Virus record (IMG/VR): IMGVR_UViG_3300036978_000532
Location: 1 to 35,879 of that record
From: a virus
DNA: 35,879 bases
Direction: 5' to 3' (one strand)
Shown here: positions 107-35,180 of the stretch, piece after piece
Layout: the number at the start of each line of letters is the position of its first letter
Position numbering within the stretch: the stretch's first letter is position 1
Program-made: the position numbers and the translations under genes
The notes under the pieces: model-generated
What the model was told of the DNA's origin: nothing
The model's input: the letters and a program-made list of their open reading frames with translations, nothing else
Database searches by the model: none

Positions 107-646
107 TTAAAGTTTTTCATACAAATCAATTAAAGGTTTCAAAGCAACTTTTACATTTTGTTTTTCATCTTCACGCCAAGTGCTTAATGGTTTAGATGTA
201 AATAGTTGTTTTAAAGAATCATTTATTTTGCCAACATAAGTAATCCAATGAGTAGATGTCTTGGTTGTGCGTTCAGGATCATTCTCCATTCTTTGAGCAG
301 AAACATTTGAAGGCAAAATTCCAATCAATTGTGCGCCAAGTTTGGCTACATCTGAAGGCCATAATTCAAGTTCAAGTTGTTCACGATTGCGAGCAAGTGA
401 AATTGCCTTTTCAGATTTATCTACTGGAATGCCTAACGACTCAATCCACTCAGATTTTCCTCCTTTGATTTGCTCACGACCAAGCAGGATCATGTCACCG
501 CAATCTGCCATCCGCATAATTGCGGCTCTAGCATTTTGTTTTGCTGTTAGGGCAAGTGCATTTGCTTCAGCATACGCCCGTTTGATTTCCCCTTCAATTG
601 CTCCCAAGGTTGTCGGGACTATCTGGTTTTTGTTTTCTGTTTCCAT
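107..646 (-). CDS. Hypothetical protein, DUF3102-like
   Basis: This 179-aa soluble protein is the last gene of the leftward operon. The N-terminal half (about residues 20-95) is an alanine/leucine-rich helical stretch followed by GKSEWIESLGI and a second helical region. That layout resembles the DUF3102 family of phage and plasmid proteins, many of which have an MT-A70- or ParB-like context. No catalytic motif is visible. The start overlaps the upstream HTH gene by 53 bases in another frame, which is large for this genome, so a later start is possible. Function unknown. Confidence 0.7.
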   Translation of the reverse strand: METENKNQIVPTTLGAIEGEIKRAYAEANALALTAKQNARAAIMRMADCGDMILLGREQIKGGKSEWIESLGIPVDKSEKAISLARNREQLELELWPSDVAKLGAQLIGILPSNVSAQRMENDPERTTKTSTHWITYVGKINDSLKQLFTSKPLSTWREDEKQNVKVALKPLIDLYEKL

Positions 647-5220: not shown

Positions 5221-6137
5221 TATTGATTCCTCCATTCTTGTGCTGTTGCAATGAATTTATCAACATTATTTGCAATTCGTTTTAAGTAATCTGGCGAGCA
5301 ATCCCGCCATGTGTATCCTTCAAGAAGAACATTTCTTGCAATCAGAAAATCATTAACCAATTGCTCATTATCAATTAACTTCTGTTCCCAATCTGTAATT
5401 GGCTGTTCTTGTTTAACAATAACCTCTTTCTTCGCCACTTCAAACAGATGCGAAACACTCTTCCATTCAAGAGGCAACTCTTCAGGAAGTCCACTTCTTG
5501 TTTTAGCATCATAAGCGGCAGAATGGGTTGTAAGCATAATGCGTTCTTTTCCTCCCATTCCTTTACCTTTGCCTCCCTCCGATTGCATGACTTTTGTTTT
5601 GAATTTCAAAAACCAAAGTTCATCAGCCCATTCTTTGATAAGCGGAGATGCCTGTTTAGACATTTTCAATTCATACCGATCATATGCGGACATAAGATCA
5701 GGTGGTTCAACACGCTGAACTTTGCTGTGAGCAATAAGCACAACATTGATGTTAAGCCCGATCAAGTCATCAAATGCTGTAAGCAAACGAGACATTTTCT
5801 CGGCAACCATAACCCATCCCTTCCCATATCCCCAATCTTCGATCGATGTTTTTTTATGTTGAGCAAGCAATCCTTCCACAACAAGGCGTTCAGTCCAATC
5901 AATCGAATCAATGACAATGGTTTGATAGTTGAGTTTTTTCACTTCACTCAATGCGGTGATAAGCTCATCTGCTGAATTGATTTCAACTCGATCAACATCA
6001 AGGTGGGCTGTTCCCCCTTCAACATCCAGAAACAAAGGTTTCGGGAAGTTAGCCGCAAATGTGGACTTTCCAATGGATTCCACGCCGTAAAGCACAACTC
6101 GTTGTGCCCGTTTTTGTTTTCCTGTTACTATTTTCAT
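5220..6137 (-). CDS. RecA-like AAA ATPase, Sak4-type single-strand annealing/recombination protein
   Basis: This 305-aa protein has Walker A GVESIGKST (18-26), an early LFLDVEGG strand (36-42) and Walker B TIVIDSIDW (73-81). This is the layout of phage nucleotide-binding AAA_24/Sak4 proteins. Those are RecA-core ATPases that help ssDNA annealing together with a DUF669-type SSB. The neighbours fit: nuclease and SSB-like genes follow directly. The start is preceded by a long hairpin and the leader CAATAGAAAATAAATG with no SD. Confidence 0.85.
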   Translation of the reverse strand: MKIVTGKQKRAQRVVLYGVESIGKSTFAANFPKPLFLDVEGGTAHLDVDRVEINSADELITALSEVKKLNYQTIVIDSIDWTERLVVEGLLAQHKKTSIEDWGYGKGWVMVAEKMSRLLTAFDDLIGLNINVVLIAHSKVQRVEPPDLMSAYDRYELKMSKQASPLIKEWADELWFLKFKTKVMQSEGGKGKGMGGKERIMLTTHSAAYDAKTRSGLPEELPLEWKSVSHLFEVAKKEVIVKQEQPITDWEQKLIDNEQLVNDFLIARNVLLEGYTWRDCSPDYLKRIANNVDKFIATAQEWRNQ

Positions 6138-6237: not shown

Positions 6238-7020
6238 TCATTTTTTTATCGGGCGTTGAGGAAATTTACGCCAAATGCTTGATGGCATTACATGTATGAC
6301 ACCATTTTTTATTTTGCTTTTGAAAACATTTGGCCAAGCTGCAAGCAATCCCCTTGTATTTTTAGCACGCCCTCCTCCCGAAAATTCAATATCGGTGCAC
6401 CCTCCTTTTTGAACAAATGAAGGCATTGTTTCAATAAGGATACGGTTAAAAATTATTGAGCACCATCTTGTTTCTATACTTGTTGATTTTGCTCCACTCA
6501 TCAAAAGTTGCATTGAATAGTCTGTATCTTCAACTATCCCTTTTCTCCATACTGCCTTAACTTTGTTATTTACAAAAACACAACTGCATGCCTGTCGGTT
6601 GTATGAAACATCATTTGCCTGACTAAATGCAAATGTAGTATAAATCGGTGCAGCAATGCCAACATTTATGTATTTAGAACATTCATTCTCTATAAACCGA
6701 ATGCATTTAATTGATTCGGTTTTGATGTTTTTGTTGTTTGTCCTAATCCTAAAACTTTTGATGTCATCATCCATTTGCCAATGAAATAAATCACCATTTG
6801 ATATGGAGTGCTGTTTTATGAAATTCCTAACATAAGCAATACCCTCATTATTTTTTTGTATGTTTATACATTTATTAGGAAATTGCTTGTTGTATAAATC
6901 AAACTCTTGTGGCTCAACTGCAATTAGAAAATCTATATTTTCTGATTGTAAAAGCTTTGCAGTAATTACATTGTTTGATCTTCCTTTAGATAAAATGTAA
7001 ATGGGATGCCAAGATTTCAT
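6238..7020 (-). CDS. TET-associated-type glycosyltransferase (TAGT), copy 1
   Basis: This 260-aa protein has a GT-A-like fold signature: PIYILSKGR (6-14), EPQEF (36-40), DDD (84-86, metal-binding type) and EDTD (164-167). The same motifs lie at nearly the same residues in the second copy at 34.3 kb. The TAGT family was described from phages that glycosylate oxidised DNA bases. I use the ATG at 7018-7020, which overlaps the RuvC-like stop and aligns with the paralogue, rather than an in-frame ATG 45 bases upstream. Acceptor and sugar are unknown. Confidence 0.75.
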   Translation of the reverse strand: MKSWHPIYILSKGRSNNVITAKLLQSENIDFLIAVEPQEFDLYNKQFPNKCINIQKNNEGIAYVRNFIKQHSISNGDLFHWQMDDDIKSFRIRTNNKNIKTESIKCIRFIENECSKYINVGIAAPIYTTFAFSQANDVSYNRQACSCVFVNNKVKAVWRKGIVEDTDYSMQLLMSGAKSTSIETRWCSIIFNRILIETMPSFVQKGGCTDIEFSGGGRAKNTRGLLAAWPNVFKSKIKNGVIHVMPSSIWRKFPQRPIKK

Positions 7021-7463
7021 TTGTTTGTATTTGCCGCATAAATTGCAACTGCAAGTGCCGCCCATGAATGAGAGGAAATACCATAAGTTGGTCCTTTATT
7101 TTTCTTTGTTCCTTGTGGACCTAATAAATCTATCAATGCCTGTCGAACATTTGCATCTTTTGCTCTCATCGAATTGCATAAATACATTTTTATGTCTTTA
7201 CGATAACATAACCTAACTTTTGTTCTGGCAATTTCTATAAATCTCCCAATCCAAACACAAGTTTCAAAAGTGCTTGCTCCAACTGCCATTCCATATGAAG
7301 CAATCATTTCAAGAGCAACTAAATCATATTCTCTCCCAATTAAAATTTGTCTCATCTCTGGATTTGGCAAGATGCCATAATCTAAAATACGATTGTTCTT
7401 TTCATCATATTGAACAAAAGCTGATTGAGTAGTTCCAGAATCAATTGCCAAAATCATAAGCAA
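7017..7463 (-). CDS. RuvC-like Holliday junction resolvase
   Basis: This 148-aa protein has an RNase-H-like fold with acidic residues D8 (LAIDSGTT), E52 (ALEMIAS) and D103, and a C-terminal H132-x-W-AALAVA helix typical of phage RuvC proteins. It should cut branched DNA before packaging or in recombination. The second Met (7455-7457) may be the true start. The 5' end overlaps the upstream gene by 23 bases, and the stop overlaps the TAGT start. Confidence 0.82.
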   Translation of the reverse strand: MLMILAIDSGTTQSAFVQYDEKNNRILDYGILPNPEMRQILIGREYDLVALEMIASYGMAVGASTFETCVWIGRFIEIARTKVRLCYRKDIKMYLCNSMRAKDANVRQALIDLLGPQGTKKNKGPTYGISSHSWAALAVAIYAANTNK

Positions 7464-8120: not shown

Positions 8121-8291
8121 TTATGGAAGAACTTGAAACCATCCTTTAAAGTGAGCTGCGGCTTGTTTTTTTGCTTGCGTATATGTTCCTGTGATGAACA
8201 TAATTTCGTCGAGGTTGCCAAAGGCCCAGTTGCCATAACCGCGTGGTTTTTTTCCGTGACTGGCTTGGTATTGTGTTGTTGAACAATTCAT
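8121..8291 (-). CDS. Small conserved-looking hypothetical protein (56 aa)
   Basis: I choose the ATG at 8289-8291 (MNCSTTQYQASHGKKPRG), because the in-frame ATG 39 bases upstream lies within the leader hairpin of the promoter module. The 56-aa product contains GKKPRGYGNWAF and a short helix TQAKKQAAAHFKG, typical of small phage or plasmid proteins of unknown role. It is the first gene behind a repeated promoter. Confidence 0.6.
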   Translation of the reverse strand: MNCSTTQYQASHGKKPRGYGNWAFGNLDEIMFITGTYTQAKKQAAAHFKGWFQVLP

Positions 8292-8314
8292 TTCTATTTT
8301 ATTTTTTTTAGTTT

Positions 8315-8341
8315 TATCATTAGGGGTCATCCCTTCTGATA
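8315..8341 (-). promoter_or_regulatory. 5'-leader hairpin, module copy 1
   Basis: On the coding strand TATCA-GAA-GGG-ATGA-CCC-CTAA-TGATA folds into an outer 5-bp and an inner 3-bp stem. It starts about 7 bases after the -10, so it would sit at the very 5' end of the mRNA. It is followed by an A-rich leader to the start at 8291. Confidence 0.65.
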
Positions 8342-8347
8342 AGAACT

Positions 8348-8375
8348 AATCTAAATAATTTTGAAATGTTGTAAA
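8348..8375 (-). promoter_or_regulatory. Repeated phage promoter, copy 1 (TTTACA - 16 - TAGATT)
   Basis: The -35-like TTTACA is at 8370-8375 and the -10-like TAGATT (followed by AG) at 8348-8353, with exactly 16 bases between. The same words and spacing occur at 30804-30831 and 31974-32001. It lies in the 103-base gap (8292-8394) before the 56-aa gene. Confidence 0.7.
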
Positions 8376-23712: not shown

Positions 23713-23746
23713 AAAAACCCCGCCCTCTTGCAAGAGCGGGGTTTTT
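23713..23746. terminator. Strong intrinsic terminator after the major capsid gene
   Basis: AAAAACCCCGC-CCTCTTGCAAGAG-CGGGGTTTTT forms a near-perfect GC stem with A- and T-runs on both sides, so it can end transcription in both directions. On the minus strand it lies 36 bases after the capsid stop codon and before the glycosyltransferase genes. Confidence 0.9.
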
Positions 23747-23781: not shown

Positions 23782-24732
23782 TTAAATGAACCCAGTCGTG
23801 ATGCGGATGATCGAAGAACCATCGATAACCTTCTCGGCCGAGTTCTGACGAACACGAAGAACATCAGCGCGGCGAGCATCGTCACGATAGGTTTCCGACA
23901 CGAATGGAACGGGCGAATCTTTAGCCCAAACGATCGTGCGACCAAATCCACCACCAGCGAAATCACCACCGACGGTATTGCAGAGTGCCAGATAGGTATT
24001 GCCCCAGATGAAACCGCCAGCGTAAGGTTGTCCCTTCTTGGCAGTATTTTTAGCGGCACGACCCACAAGGACGCGATCAACTCCAACAGCGGCTGCAACT
24101 TCTGCTTCGCTCAAGAGGCGAGTTTGATCAGAAGGAACAACACCAAAGAATTGGTTTTGCACTTTCACCGAACGGCGGATGCGCTCGAAAACTGGTTGCG
24201 ACATAACAAGCGTGTTAGGAAGCACTCCATATTTGGCAAGTTCAAGCTTGGCGTTAGCGACATCAGCAGGAACATCGAATGTTCCGATGTTGGCATCGGT
24301 GTAAGCGGCAGAAGCAGAAATTGCAGTCAGGCCGTTAGAGGCAAAGGTTGCAGAAGCAACGCGAGCTTCGTGGCTGATTTGGATTTGACGCAAGAGCATT
24401 GCGGCAATGTTCACTTCGGTATCGAAGAAACGATCCAGATCGCGACGATTAGCGTCAGGAAGAACCTCTTCAAGACCATACTCGATTGCGTCGAATGTAT
24501 CGCTATCAAAGCGGCGGCTTGTGCGGGGATACCCAGAACCAGCGGCAATTTTGAGAGTGTCATCGTTCAATGCTTCGGAATTGCCGAGGTTGAGCTTGAG
24601 ATACACGCCCGACTTAACATCAGACGAATAAACAGGCATCACTTCAGCACCGATGAACATATTGTTTTTATTGGACAAGCCCTCGAAAACGGCTTGAGCA
24701 ATATCAGAGCGGATATTAACAGATGAGATCAT
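23782..24732 (-). CDS. Major capsid protein, gpE-like HK97 fold (316 aa)
   Basis: This 316-aa protein fits the lambda gpE / HK97-fold family. It has an N-terminal arm with helix (NIRSDIAQAVFEGLSNKNN), an E-loop-like segment PVYSSDVKSGVYLKL, and a long spine helix (FDTEVNIAAMLLRQIQISHE). It ends with conserved VPFVSETYRDD/ARRADVLRV strands. The neighbours confirm it: decoration and protease genes upstream and a strong terminator downstream. No separate N-terminal scaffold domain is visible. Confidence 0.88.
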   Translation of the reverse strand: MISSVNIRSDIAQAVFEGLSNKNNMFIGAEVMPVYSSDVKSGVYLKLNLGNSEALNDDTLKIAAGSGYPRTSRRFDSDTFDAIEYGLEEVLPDANRRDLDRFFDTEVNIAAMLLRQIQISHEARVASATFASNGLTAISASAAYTDANIGTFDVPADVANAKLELAKYGVLPNTLVMSQPVFERIRRSVKVQNQFFGVVPSDQTRLLSEAEVAAAVGVDRVLVGRAAKNTAKKGQPYAGGFIWGNTYLALCNTVGGDFAGGGFGRTIVWAKDSPVPFVSETYRDDARRADVLRVRQNSAEKVIDGSSIIRITTGFI

Positions 24733-29670: not shown

Positions 29671-29694
29671 GCGGAAGGGGATTGCCCCTCCCGC
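29671..29694 (-). terminator. Hairpin after DUF932 gene, possible terminator or leader
   Basis: GCGGAAGGGG (29671-29680) and CCCCTCCCGC (29685-29694) pair over 10 positions (one G-U on the coding strand) with loop ATTG. The sequence after it on the coding strand is ATTTCTTAAA, a weak U-tract, and the zinc-finger ATG follows within 11 bases. It could stop or reduce transcription. Confidence 0.6.
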
Positions 29695-29702
29695 TGTTAG
29701 TC

Positions 29703-30431
29703 TTAGTTCAAGAATGCTTCTGCAACATTCCATAATTCCCTATTGACGGCGACATCCGTTCCTGCGGATGTTATTTTACGGATTCCGCTGTATCGGCGTC
29801 CTTGAGTTAAATTTTCTTGCACTCGGTTGAATATCCTCCAAAGATTGTCGCCGTTATCATCATATCGGCGAACATAATCTAGCGATTGGATTTGTTTTTC
29901 TTCTGGCTCGTTGTAACGAATTTTTGCAGCTTCTGATAAGAATGAAATCTTTTCTGGATATGAAAGTTGTTTTGATTTCATTCTTCCAATTACATCTGTT
30001 AAGCGTGTTGAATTGGAAATCAATCGTGTTGCTGCTTCTTGAATAAGTTCGATGTTAACTCTTTTATGGATAAATTTTACTTCATCTTGGATGCTTCCAG
30101 ACACCATTCCGTTTGAACAAACAAGACGGAAAATACCAAGCATCATTTTAAGTGAGCTTGATCCATCGTGTGCATTTATCAATACAACCTCTGGAAATTC
30201 ATCTCCAACCTTGGCAAGTTGTGAAGATTCATGCCGCATCCGAACAACATGTTTTTGGAAACCTTTGCGTTCTTCTTTGTTGACCTTTTGGATTTGGATT
30301 TGACGAGTGGTGAATCCTACATTTTGCAGGTTGTCGATAATTGCGCGGCTTGAAATAAAGCCATACTTTGGGCTTGTATTTGATGCTGCGTGAGCGGCGT
30401 CGATTGCGCTGAGTTGATTTAATGTTGTCAT
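29703..30431 (-). CDS. DUF932 family protein (242 aa)
   Basis: This 242-aa protein fits the phage/plasmid DUF932 family: YGFISSRAIIDNLQNVGF, VRMRHESSQLAKVGDEFPEV, LINAHDGSSSLKMMLGIFRL and VCSNGMVSGS. These are conserved stretches of that family. Its biochemical role is unknown, though some relatives are linked to plasmid or phage anti-restriction regions. The start has no SD and a leader of the form CAAAATAGAAAATAAAATG behind a hairpin. Confidence 0.82.
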   Translation of the reverse strand: MTTLNQLSAIDAAHAASNTSPKYGFISSRAIIDNLQNVGFTTRQIQIQKVNKEERKGFQKHVVRMRHESSQLAKVGDEFPEVVLINAHDGSSSLKMMLGIFRLVCSNGMVSGSIQDEVKFIHKRVNIELIQEAATRLISNSTRLTDVIGRMKSKQLSYPEKISFLSEAAKIRYNEPEEKQIQSLDYVRRYDDNGDNLWRIFNRVQENLTQGRRYSGIRKITSAGTDVAVNRELWNVAEAFLN

Positions 30432-30485: not shown

Positions 30486-30749
30486 TTAGATTTCAGTGCA
30501 TCCCGAAAGATCAATTTTTCTATCTGCGCGCATTGTGGATGCGCAAAGTGAGAGGAACCTTTTGCGTGTTAAAGCTGGTGTTCCCTGTGGATGGGCTACC
30601 CATAAACTGCGACCTGTTGTTTTAACAAATCGAGAAGGTTTCCCGCCTCCACATTTTACCCATTGTCCGCATTGAAGTTTAATTTGACCGTTCAAAACAG
30701 CGGATTGAATTGAAGGATTCCAGAGATCAAGTGTTGGGAGATATTTCAT
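30486..30749 (-). CDS. Hypothetical protein (87 aa)
   Basis: This 87-aa basic protein (MKYLPTLDLWNPSIQSAVLN) has GQIKLQCGQWVKCGGGKPSR and HPQGTPALTRKRFLSLC. The Q-C-G-Q-W-V-K-C-G and K-P-S-R-F segments recur in small phage/plasmid proteins near DUF932 genes. Function unknown. First gene behind promoter copy 2. Confidence 0.65.
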   Translation of the reverse strand: MKYLPTLDLWNPSIQSAVLNGQIKLQCGQWVKCGGGKPSRFVKTTGRSLWVAHPQGTPALTRKRFLSLCASTMRADRKIDLSGCTEI

Positions 30750-30775
30750 TTTATTTTTTATTTGAGGTTTCTATC

Positions 30776-30797
30776 ATCAGGGGTTATCCCTTCTGAT
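30776..30797 (-). promoter_or_regulatory. 5'-leader hairpin, module copy 2
   Basis: On the coding strand ATCAG-AA-GGG-ATAA-CCC-CTGAT forms a 5-bp outer and 3-bp inner stem with an AA bulge. It begins about 7 bases after the -10. The outer pairs match copy 1 in part and differ from copy 3 in both strands. Confidence 0.68.
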
Positions 30798-30803
30798 ATT
30801 TCT

Positions 30804-30831
30804 AATCTAATCCAAAATTGATTTTTGTAAA
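30804..30831 (-). promoter_or_regulatory. Repeated phage promoter, copy 2 (TTTACA - 16 - TAGATT)
   Basis: TTTACA at 30826-30831 and TAGATT (followed by AG) at 30804-30809 with 16 bases between. It lies in the 91-base gap before the 87-aa gene, just after the glycosylase-like gene's stop. Confidence 0.72.
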
Positions 30832-30840
30832 TAATTTTTT

Positions 30841-31254
30841 TCAGAAAGTTTTAGGCCAAATGTAAGGCAGATTAGGATCAATATTTGGAAAATGCTTTGA
30901 ATAATACAAAGAATCTTTTCTCAGCAGATTGCTCTGATGCGAAATTGAAAGTTCTTCGGTTAACCAATTTGGCTTTTCGCATTTTCTGAAGTATTCTGCT
31001 TCTGATTGAAACCGATTAAGCATTGTGTCTTTATACCCCCTGCGGATCCACTCTTTACAAATAGCTATTCCATATTCGCACAATTGATATTCGTATCCGC
31101 TCCACATTTTAGTTGCTGGATGATTGCGCCATCCTGAACCTTTGGTTAATGCAGTAAGTATTTGCCAAGCTTCTACTCGTTGCTTACCGAGCCTGCGATA
31201 ATCTAAAACTGCCGCAGATTTTGAAAATGATTTGAATGGTAGAAAAGTTTGCAT
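30841..31254 (-). CDS. Pyrimidine-dimer DNA glycosylase-like protein (Pyr_excise/MSMEG_6728 type)
   Basis: This 137-aa protein begins MQTFLPFKSFSKSAAVLDYR and has RLGKQRVEA (21-29), GWRNHPATKMW (41-51) and CKEWIRRGYKDT (66-77). These match the family related to T4 endonuclease V (DenV). T4 DenV cuts at pyrimidine dimers using its N-terminal Thr; this subgroup has Q2-T3 instead, so catalysis is unproven. It may repair phage DNA or act on modified bases. Confidence 0.78.
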   Translation of the reverse strand: MQTFLPFKSFSKSAAVLDYRRLGKQRVEAWQILTALTKGSGWRNHPATKMWSGYEYQLCEYGIAICKEWIRRGYKDTMLNRFQSEAEYFRKCEKPNWLTEELSISHQSNLLRKDSLYYSKHFPNIDPNLPYIWPKTF

Positions 31255-31255
31255 T

Positions 31256-31474
31256 TTAGTAAATTGCTAATGCCGCTTTTGCTTCCTCGTCGGAAAGTAT
31301 GATGTCGGTCCCACAATCAAGATAGGCATGGCGACCTGTTGATGGTTGCCAGCAGTAAAGTAAAACTTTACCACTGCGTGATTTGAATGGAGTTTCAGTC
31401 CCGCCGCAAGCAGGAACCCAATGTCCTTGTTCAGCTTTTTTTGCAAGCTTGTCGATAAGTTGATCGATGTTCAT
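31256..31474 (-). CDS. Small hypothetical protein (72 aa)
   Basis: An N-terminal helix (MNIDQLIDKLAKKAEQGHWV) is followed by a beta part with ACGGTETPFKSRSGKVLLYC and LDCGTDIILSDEEA. Cys and Gly spacing hints at a small beta fold. It lies one base from the glycosylase-like gene and after a terminator. Function unknown. Confidence 0.65.
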   Translation of the reverse strand: MNIDQLIDKLAKKAEQGHWVPACGGTETPFKSRSGKVLLYCWQPSTGRHAYLDCGTDIILSDEEAKAALAIY

Positions 31475-31481
31475 ATAGTAT

Positions 31482-31513
31482 TTAAAAAGCCAGAGGGATT
31501 GAACCTCTGGCTG
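31482..31513 (-). terminator. Intrinsic terminator between 131-aa and 72-aa genes
   Basis: On the coding strand AGCCAGAGG (31512-31504) pairs with CCTCTGGCT (31496-31488), followed by TTTTTAAA. This is a standard intrinsic terminator just after the 131-aa gene behind promoter copy 3. Partial read-through would be needed to express the following genes, or another promoter. Confidence 0.85.
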
Positions 31514-31520
31514 ATTTTAA

Positions 31521-31916
31521 TTAGGCAACAAGGATTTGAATATTTGAAGCGGCGTTACCTTTTTGAACTTCCCGAATCTTTTTGCGTTCAGCTCCGTTTT
31601 TAGGAACACATCCAGCAAATTGAAGTAATTCCATAGTGCTTGCTATGAATCCCCAAAATTGAAATGGCCCATCATGAAGGCAAGAAACAAAAGGTGTAAA
31701 CTCATGGAGCAAAGCAATGTCCGCTTGATAGACATAGCGGACTTTACCATCTTCACAAACAAATGCATCTGTTACACCGCGATCTCGGTTGAATCCTGTG
31801 TCGGAATTTTTGATTGATTGTTTAGCAGATTGCTCGTTGTAGCTGAGGTCGATGTTTGCGGATGCAACTGCTTCGGCAAGTGTATTGTGGCGGCTGATGA
31901 TTTTGATTGATTTCAT
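31521..31916 (-). CDS. Hypothetical protein (131 aa), first gene behind promoter copy 3
   Basis: This 131-aa soluble protein (MKSIKIISRHNTLAEAVASA) has a helical N-part, a central VTDAFVCEDGKVRYVYQADI and a C-terminal basic helix. It is insulated by a promoter upstream and a terminator downstream, so it is a single-gene unit. This suggests strong or early expression, as for host-takeover proteins. No family recognised. Confidence 0.65.
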   Translation of the reverse strand: MKSIKIISRHNTLAEAVASANIDLSYNEQSAKQSIKNSDTGFNRDRGVTDAFVCEDGKVRYVYQADIALLHEFTPFVSCLHDGPFQFWGFIASTMELLQFAGCVPKNGAERKKIREVQKGNAASNIQILVA

Positions 31917-31943
31917 TTTTCTATTTCTATTTTAGGTTTTTTC

Positions 31944-31966
31944 TCGTCGGGATTCATTCCCTTCGA
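31944..31966 (-). promoter_or_regulatory. 5'-leader hairpin, module copy 3
   Basis: On the coding strand TCG-AA-GGGA-ATGAA-TCCC-GA-CGA forms a 3-bp outer and 4-bp inner stem with a 2x2 internal loop. Compared with copies 1 and 2 the outer bases differ on both sides yet still pair, supporting an RNA structure. Confidence 0.68.
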
Positions 31967-31973
31967 TGTTGCT

Positions 31974-32001
31974 AATTTATCAAGATGTTGATTCTTGTAA
32001 A
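31974..32001 (-). promoter_or_regulatory. Repeated phage promoter, copy 3 (TTTACA - 16 - TAAATT)
   Basis: TTTACA at 31996-32001 and TAAATT (followed by AG) at 31974-31979 with 16 bases between. It lies in the 104-base gap after the large terminase stop and drives the 131-aa gene. Confidence 0.72.
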
Positions 32002-33751: not shown

Positions 33752-34341
33752 GCTTTCAAAAGTTCTCCCTGCATTTCACCTAAGATGCCCTGCACCCGAT
33801 CATTTAGTTTCTTCCTCAACTCTACTTCTCCCAATCCTGCCAATGCTCCACTGGCATCATTCACAAGAGCAGAAAGTTTTGCTGAAAGGATAGCACCAAA
33901 CCTAATTCCAGCTTCTCGCACTTCCAGATTTTTTACATACTCACCGCGATCAATTGCAAGTGCATATTCAATCCGCTCACATTCAAGAATTGTTTTACGC
34001 AATCTTGCTTCATTCAATCCTTTGGGAGCATCCTTTCCACGCCCATTCTGTTCAAGAAAGTTTTTGCGCCATGCTTCAGCCGCTTCCATTGATGTCATTG
34101 GCATTCCTGCCTTTACCATCTTGTGAACATTAGGTTGTGTCATGCCCCAGGCTTTTGCAACATCCCTTTGCGTTAATTTTTTATCGCTATTATCTTTTCC
34201 TGCGGCATAATCATCAATGATTGCGCTTTCTCTTGCAGTTAAAGTTTTCCCGCTTTTTAATTTTTGAAGGATATTTTTAACTTCAGCATCCCTAATCTTC
34301 TTTTGAAGATCATTTGAAGATGGATTGTCTTTTTTTGCCAT
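33748..34341 (-). CDS. Terminase small subunit, Nu1-like (197 aa)
   Basis: An HTH lies at about residues 56-80 (TQRDVAKAWGMTQPNVHKMV) and a helical part with LRKTILECERIEYALAIDRG follows. The rest is helical (LSALVNDASGALAGLGEVEL), for oligomerisation and contact with the large subunit. It recognises the packaging site. It is coupled to the TAGT gene upstream by TAATG and to the large subunit downstream. Confidence 0.82.
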   Translation of the reverse strand: MAKKDNPSSNDLQKKIRDAEVKNILQKLKSGKTLTARESAIIDDYAAGKDNSDKKLTQRDVAKAWGMTQPNVHKMVKAGMPMTSMEAAEAWRKNFLEQNGRGKDAPKGLNEARLRKTILECERIEYALAIDRGEYVKNLEVREAGIRFGAILSAKLSALVNDASGALAGLGEVELRKKLNDRVQGILGEMQGELLKA

Positions 34342-35180
34342 TATTTTTTAGGCTTTAAAGCCATTCCGTAATTGTTTATTCCAGCAGGAATTTCTATTCC
34401 TGTTTTTTTCAATAAAATATTTTTTCTAAATCTTGAGTAGTTCACATGATGTTGCCAGCGACCCCACTTATGAACAATTGTAGTAACATCTGGATGTTGT
34501 CTTTGCAAATGTTTTGCCATTTCCAAACGGCCATCAAAATTTGCATCTTGCTTGTAAAGTTGATCTGTATTGCCGCCCTTCATTGTCATCGTTGCTCTTT
34601 TCCTGCAAACAAATGCCTGCATCAAAATCGTGCACCATTTATCTTTTAATGCACGAAGAGATAAGTCGGTATCTTCATTATAGCGACCACGCCACCTGTA
34701 AGGAATGTCGTTCCGAATTAAAATACAGGAATAGATTCTTGTATTTAGAACAAATGGTTTAGCTTTTGCCCTTGCTGGAACAAACATTTCATATTGCAAA
34801 CCGGCGATTGCAACATTGCTATATCGCAAAACAAAATCTTCAGTCGCCTTAAAACAAATACCATTTGAAACCTTTGTTTTTTTATTGAGATGAAGTCGAG
34901 AAAATGCCGCGATATTGTCATCAAGAATCCAATGCCATAAATGCCCCTCACTCATTGAATGTTCCCATACAAAATTTCGAGAAGGAATGGATCCCTGCCC
35001 TAAATTACTAAATGGAGTGACCAATATCTTTTGAGGGTCAATGACGGATGAATACTTCTTGAACTCTTGAGGTTCAATGACGATCCGATATGGAACATTC
35101 ATTTCCTCAAGAGCTTTAGAAGTCAGCCGACTTTCCCATCTACCCTTTGATATGATATAAACAGGAAATTGCGGATTCAT
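34341..35180 (-). CDS. TET-associated-type glycosyltransferase (TAGT), copy 2
   Basis: This 279-aa protein has PVYIISKGR (6-14), EPQEF (36-40), HWILDDN (83-89) and NEDTD (168-172), in the same register as the copy at 6.2 kb. The ParB-like gene directly upstream (TAATG overlap) is a known partner of TAGTs in phage DNA-modification neighbourhoods. It probably adds sugar to modified DNA bases. The substrate base and sugar donor cannot be read from sequence. Confidence 0.78.
   Translation of the reverse strand: MNPQFPVYIISKGRWESRLTSKALEEMNVPYRIVIEPQEFKKYSSVIDPQKILVTPFSNLGQGSIPSRNFVWEHSMSEGHLWHWILDDNIAAFSRLHLNKKTKVSNGICFKATEDFVLRYSNVAIAGLQYEMFVPARAKAKPFVLNTRIYSCILIRNDIPYRWRGRYNEDTDLSLRALKDKWCTILMQAFVCRKRATMTMKGGNTDQLYKQDANFDGRLEMAKHLQRQHPDVTTIVHKWGRWQHHVNYSRFRKNILLKKTGIEIPAGINNYGMALKPKK

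Follow-up and report, generated by a model that had tools for sequence, protein, structure and literature searches.

A hairpin in the 5' leader of a phage mRNA is a known kind of element. In the class III transcripts of phage T7 (the gene 10 leader, phi10, and phi17) a hairpin forms the start and an A/T-rich leader comes next, and the stem-loops of E. coli ompA and papA and of B. subtilis aprE lie close to the 5' end or right at it, before the ribosome-binding region. Small conserved hairpins are also found at the start of phage operons, as in lambda boxB, which has a purine-rich five-base loop, and HK022 put, which is a two-hairpin structure. The initiation regions of Bacteroidota, and of Verrucomicrobiota in which Shine-Dalgarno sequences are scarce, are A-rich right before the ATG and lack a Shine-Dalgarno; to our knowledge they contain no conserved 5' hairpin module. 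It is established that stem-loops at the 5' terminus can stabilise mRNA (Emory 1992; Bouvet 1992; both cited in PMC3997798).

The DNA analysed, referred to as the window, is the whole 35,879-bp IMG/VR virus record IMGVR_UViG_3300036978_000532. An earlier note on this DNA had described a repeated promoter followed by a hairpin and an A-rich leader, and this arrangement proved to be real. The pattern TTTACA-N16-TARATTAG was present in exactly three copies, all on the minus strand (8346-8375, 30802-30831 and 31972-32001), compared with a mean of 0.003 expected per window from 300 dinucleotide shuffles, and none of the 300 shuffles gave the pattern together with a following hairpin. The promoters themselves, A (8348-8375), B (30804-30831) and C (31974-32001), consist of TTTACA, a 16-bp spacer and TAGATT (with AG following) in A, TAGATT in B and TAAATT in C, the last being just past the terminase gene. 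At each copy the presumed -10 is followed by 6-7 nt, ATC and the hairpin, an A-rich stretch without a Shine-Dalgarno and an ATG. Hairpin A (8315-8341, minus strand) has the outer stem UAUCA/UGAUA, the internal loop GA/AA, the inner stem AGGG/CCCU and the loop AUGAC. Hairpin B (30772-30798, minus strand) has the same two stems with the internal loop GA/GA and the loop AUAAC, while hairpin C (31944-31966, minus strand) is made of UCG/CGA, AA/GA, GGGA/UCCC and AUGAA. The folding energies were -10.2 kcal/mol (z -3.97) for A, -11.2 kcal/mol (z -4.10) for B and -8.9 kcal/mol (z -3.48) for C, each hairpin being more stable than all 200 shuffles of its own leader. The A-rich leaders occupy 8301-8314, 30750-30771 and 31917-31943 on the minus strand, none with a Shine-Dalgarno, and the distance from the start of the hairpin to the ATG is about 40, 48 and 51 nt for A, B and C, respectively.

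The three outer stems had been taken for three different sequences, and this has to be amended. In its most stable register hairpin B has the outer stem of A, and the stem ATCAG/CTGAT at 30776-30797 is an alternative register rather than a third sequence. The paired changes claimed for the window therefore hold between A/B and C, where outer A-U becomes G-C and inner AGGG/CCCU becomes GGGA/UCCC, and not between A and B, which are near-identical. By themselves the three window copies are thin evidence for pairing. Several other identities for the hairpin were rejected. An intrinsic terminator or attenuator does not fit, as the hairpin is followed on the transcript strand by A-rich sequence with no U run, and no terminator was called on the minus strand at any of the three sites. 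An antisense or plus-strand element is contradicted by the A-rich leader and ATG, which fix the strand, and a CsrA site by the GGA-containing inner stem, which is GAGA or GCC in relatives.

Searches with the portal and terminase gave about 140 related IMG/VR contigs. Among the phages that share the terminase and portal of the window, the leader was found 64-145 nt past the terminase gene in 62 of 89 distinct downstream regions and was absent there from the other 27. Additional copies lie elsewhere in several genomes, several of which hold two (one after the terminase, one elsewhere); with up to 2-3 copies per genome, and with relatives lacking the post-terminase leader, the term 'phage-wide' used previously is too strong. 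The nearest relatives (L045/L085, L086, L043 and L142) have the leader with visible changes, the inner stem being GAGA/UCUC in L043, in place of GGG/CCC, and GGCG/CGCC in L142. The bulk of the clade (GC about 0.53) has a different promoter stretch, cttttcaaaaataaaaaaagcgtagatatt, and then a hairpin of this kind, ATCGAAAGGCAAGAAGCCCGACGA. A further branch reads ttgacg...ATCGAAGGCACCACGCCAACGACG, and near-identical sisters have GCCACCACGGC (L057, L059, L060). A scan of the relatives for the strict promoter of the window gave no match, because in most of them the hairpin is preceded by another promoter sequence. Scans of viral contigs for exact long patterns returned nothing or this clade only, since the spacing of the promoter and the stems vary, and a direct megablast of positions 1-24000 of the window against isolated phages gave no match.

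Models of the element found further copies in related phages. Model R1 matched hairpins A and B in the window with 35.1 and 44.5 bits, and found copies absent from its training set at other genome positions (L158, L161, L166 and L167), one of them with the inner stem AGCG/CGCU. In these same four contigs a terminator-like hairpin, TTTTCGCACTTCGCGAAAA, and a T run stand directly 5' of the leader, consistent with an operon boundary. A fourth R1 match in the window (157-203, E 0.015) was rejected; it is inside a gene and does not fold as the element does (UCUAAACCA...). Model R2, from which the window and its nearest relatives were left out, gave E values of 1.1e-7 for C and 0.015 for B and no better than 0.75 for A; copy A rests on its near-identity to B.

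In its general form the element opens with 5'-AUC(R) and an internal loop of 2x2 (sometimes 3x3) nucleotides, continues with 3-4 bp of inner stem and the loop ANNAN, and closes with (Y)GA. The outer stem is 2-5 bp long. The internal loop is symmetric, RA/RA, with A nearly always at the 3' position on both sides, and the ANNAN pentaloop is present in all but the GCAAC/CAA type. The UC/GA pairs showed no variation over 54 aligned sequences. The sequence of the inner stem is free, and it alone varies while AUC/GA, the internal loop and the loop are kept. The distance from the hairpin start to the ATG in 75 leaders of relatives was 45-60 nt, mostly 46-51 with a mode of 49.

The main covariation test used 24 copies in a MAFFT alignment made from sequence only, with 500 shuffles. 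Paired cells made up 83.7% compared with 69.9 ± 1.7% in the shuffles, 25 cells were doubly changed compared with 8.3, and the covariation score was 0.364 compared with 0.135 ± 0.022, with none of the 500 shuffles scoring as high. Sliding the partner by 1-3 columns gave a score of 0.114 or less, thus compensatory changes were beyond chance and exceeded both the slid and the shuffled controls. RNAalifold, unprompted, returned the same two helices. A larger set of 54 distinct copies scored 0.303 compared with 0.086, in an alignment which was made with the model and fitted to the structure, which includes the spurious row 157-203 and whose shuffles do not correct for relatedness. For these reasons the best evidence is the number of paired inner-stem versions, at least 13, and the local swaps between near-identical leaders, GGC/GCC for GCC/GGC (L063, L060) and CGGG/CCCG for CGAG/CUCG (L167, L161). 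Pairing has thus been kept in the leaders of related phages; its loss there was what the earlier note had said would speak against the element. Evolution has preserved the pairing of the hairpin, which therefore probably works as an RNA; its most likely task is to protect its messages and help to express them.

These data bear on two explanations that need no functional RNA. The copies might have been inherited by duplication, the hairpin being a by-product of the promoter sequence with no function of its own; the copies are all alike and held by one clade, and A and B are near-identical. This is contradicted by the covariation, the double compensatory changes having occurred in several lineages and single changes often giving G-U pairs, and we regard it as very improbable. 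The inverted repeat might instead be an operator, bound as double-stranded DNA by a repressor or activator, and a dyad overlapping or following +1 that recurs at several promoters of one genome would suit such a role. However, copies in one genome have different inner arms that still pair (A/B and C in the window; also G001, G003 and G009), and the arms flip polarity between near-identical leaders, which a dimer reading the sequence would not tolerate. These two features make an operator unlikely, though somewhat less so than duplication.

The conserved positions raise a different question. A hairpin acting purely as a 5' shield could have any sequence, but there is almost no variation at AUC/GA, at the A of the internal loop or at positions 1 and 4 of the loop, a hint that some factor recognises the hairpin. 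Certain outer stems have just 2-3 bp and energies can be as weak as -5 to -6 kcal/mol, several relatives (L142, L167) have a poor -10 and 27 of the 89 regions lack the leader; like the near-invariance, these points count against the expression leader proposed below. A phage or host protein may bind the hairpin, either in antitermination, as at lambda boxB/nut or HK022 put, or as a joint translational switch. Invariant AUC/GA, RA/RA and ANNAN with only the inner stem variable are the usual mark of a recognised hairpin, the element sits at operon starts, and there are terminator-like hairpins after the first gene in operon C and where operon B ends. However, loop positions 3 and 5 vary even inside the window, the conserved 5' AUC may be nothing more than the start site, and different phages have different first genes after the leader. 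The element is also unlike boxB and put in its ANNAN loop, its conserved internal loop and its single hairpin, and no boxA-like element or N-like protein was identified. Given the conserved loop and internal-loop bases, a protein-bound element, antitermination included, is kept as a possible but doubtful reading.

When the first open reading frames after the 75 leaders were clustered, they gave 33 unrelated groups of small proteins; the leader is thus a module that is used repeatedly, not a component of a single gene. In the window the family-matched genes and all genes linked to a leader are on the minus strand. The first gene after leader A (8121-8300, minus strand) encodes a protein of about 59 aa of the MNCSTTQ...SHGKKPRGYG family, whose homologues in L043 and L142 also come directly after the leader. 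The start called for this gene, at 8330, is inside the hairpin and is probably wrong. The block behind copy A contains a TET-associated glycosyltransferase, an AAA ATPase, DUF2800/PD-(D/E)XK, DUF669 and a DnaB helicase. The short operons headed by copies C and B lie between terminase and portal and include genes for a pyrimidine-dimer glycosylase (PF03013) and a DUF932 protein. The first gene after B (30486-30749, minus strand, 87 aa) matched no family and is followed by the DUF932 gene (29703-30431, minus strand) and, at the end of the operon, a terminator-like hairpin (29671-29694). The first gene after C (31521-31916, minus strand, 131 aa) likewise matched no family and has a terminator-like hairpin after it (31488-31512). 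The suggestion that the promoter serves early genes is accordingly plausible for copy A, which heads a replication and nucleotide-metabolism block, but it does not extend to B, C and most copies in relatives, which open small accessory operons between terminase and portal.

Some further observations concern these genes. The small protein with the conserved SHGKKPRGYG...WAF motif has no Pfam match. It heads the leader-A operon and is also known from apparently unrelated larger phages, its occurrences being in the window (8121-8300), L043 (3995-4177), L142 (2083-2253) and L143, L144, L145 and L146. The copy away from the terminase in the window, L142 and G001 precedes the gene for this protein or its neighbour. 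Genes resembling glucosyl-HMC glucosyltransferase (phrog_842) are present at 6238-7065 and 34341-35180, the first also matching the TET-associated glycosyltransferase family, which suggests modified DNA bases. A strong terminator-like hairpin, AAAAACCCCGCTCTTGCAAGAGGGCGGGGTTTTT (23713-23746, minus strand), separates a glycosyltransferase gene from the gene upstream of it (23782-24732). TTGACA or TTGACG stands 13-14 nt before the start codon of several structural genes (10881, 17570, 20764, 25996 and 28264, minus strand) and, with the same spacing, before the post-terminase gene in L081, L090, L097 and L022. The window count is weak (7 compared with 4.3 in shuffles), but the interval is regular and shorter than a normal -35/-10 promoter would need.

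A promoter, an immediate paired hairpin and an A-rich landing site form the layout of 5'-protected, well-translated phage messages such as T7 gene 10, and on this ground a modular 5' expression leader is given an even chance of being the correct reading. The sigma-70-like promoter would be read by the host polymerase, which is assumed because no RNA polymerase was seen among the open reading frames scanned, and transcription would start 6-9 nt past the -10. Judged by this distance, the mRNA would begin at AUC, or no more than a few nt from it, and fold at once into the two-part hairpin, so that its 5' end may be hidden from decay that depends on the 5' end. The A-rich, unpaired sequence that ends at the ATG, which typically lies about 49 nt from the hairpin start, would be the ribosome landing site in a host with little use of Shine-Dalgarno sequences. 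Copy A would place the module at the head of an early gene block, and its other uses would be in front of small accessory genes that are unrelated to one another. A conserved hairpin with conserved flanks at gene starts also recalls the N4-type promoter, in which a hairpin in single-stranded DNA is read by a virion RNA polymerase. This was considered and rejected as scarcely credible. No RNA polymerase was found among the open reading frames scanned in this possibly incomplete record, and no open reading frame was near the size of a virion RNA polymerase, the largest being 801 aa. The hairpin is, moreover, downstream of a sigma-70-like promoter which alone explains a start near the hairpin and not 11-12 nt after it.

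The expression leader as proposed differs from its closest parallels. T7 uses its own polymerase and Shine-Dalgarno sequences, whereas the window promoters look sigma-70-like and none of the 75 leaders of relatives has a Shine-Dalgarno. The T7 hairpins, folded here at -16.1 (phi10) and -15.7 kcal/mol (phi17), share only the promoter-derived GGGAGA and have no common internal loop or conserved loop. The ompA, papA and aprE stem-loops belong to single host genes and form no repeated covarying family, and stabilisation is proven there whereas here it is put forward by analogy.

The scarcity of Shine-Dalgarno sequences extends to the whole window (6 of 51 genes) and to Verrucomicrobia phage P8625 (3 of 39 genes). 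When the terminase was compared with isolated phages by tblastn, P8625 was the best among the matches listed (134 bits, 22.5% identity), and it has distant homologues of the terminase, portal, tape measure and ParB-like genes of the window. Verrucomicrobia bacterium IMCC26134 and Akkermansia are listed as scarce in Shine-Dalgarno sequences (PMC10783764). Two scans of genome contigs with the terminase found no relative, so the assignment of the host rests on the distant similarity to P8625 and on the Shine-Dalgarno scarcity; by these the host is likely to belong to the Verrucomicrobiota. P8625 (L147) has no significant copy of the leader (best E 0.36). It has a repeat of its own at 5448, 10772 and 15594, TTGACA followed by GTATCC...GGATAC-like arms; the ATG comes about 30 nt downstream of TTGACA, which points to messages that are leaderless or have a very short leader. 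The leader described here belongs to a clade of phages, presumably freshwater given the lake-type sources associated with these IMG/VR contigs, that probably infect Verrucomicrobiota.

The earlier note knew of no described family of this form, and Rfam indeed gave no match at the window leaders (E up to 5) or in six relatives (E up to 1), nor was a description of this leader found in open-access literature. As far as could be tested, this leader family, its reuse before unrelated genes and its setting free of Shine-Dalgarno sequences are new. Rfam lacks this well-supported RNA element, whose phage group is widely sampled but uncultured. The leader marks a site of fast-changing accessory genes and so can be used to find such genes. 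A more speculative possibility, held with less confidence than protein binding as such, is a portable RNA control module, in which one hairpin and one phage or host factor would serve interchangeable small genes, possibly for host takeover, at a fixed spot after the terminase. If so, a changing set of accessory genes would be switched and translated together in a host making little use of Shine-Dalgarno sequences. The leader is in addition a possible ready-made expression leader for Verrucomicrobiota, and it provides a testable case of how phages keep their mRNAs stable and translated in bacteria with little Shine-Dalgarno use.
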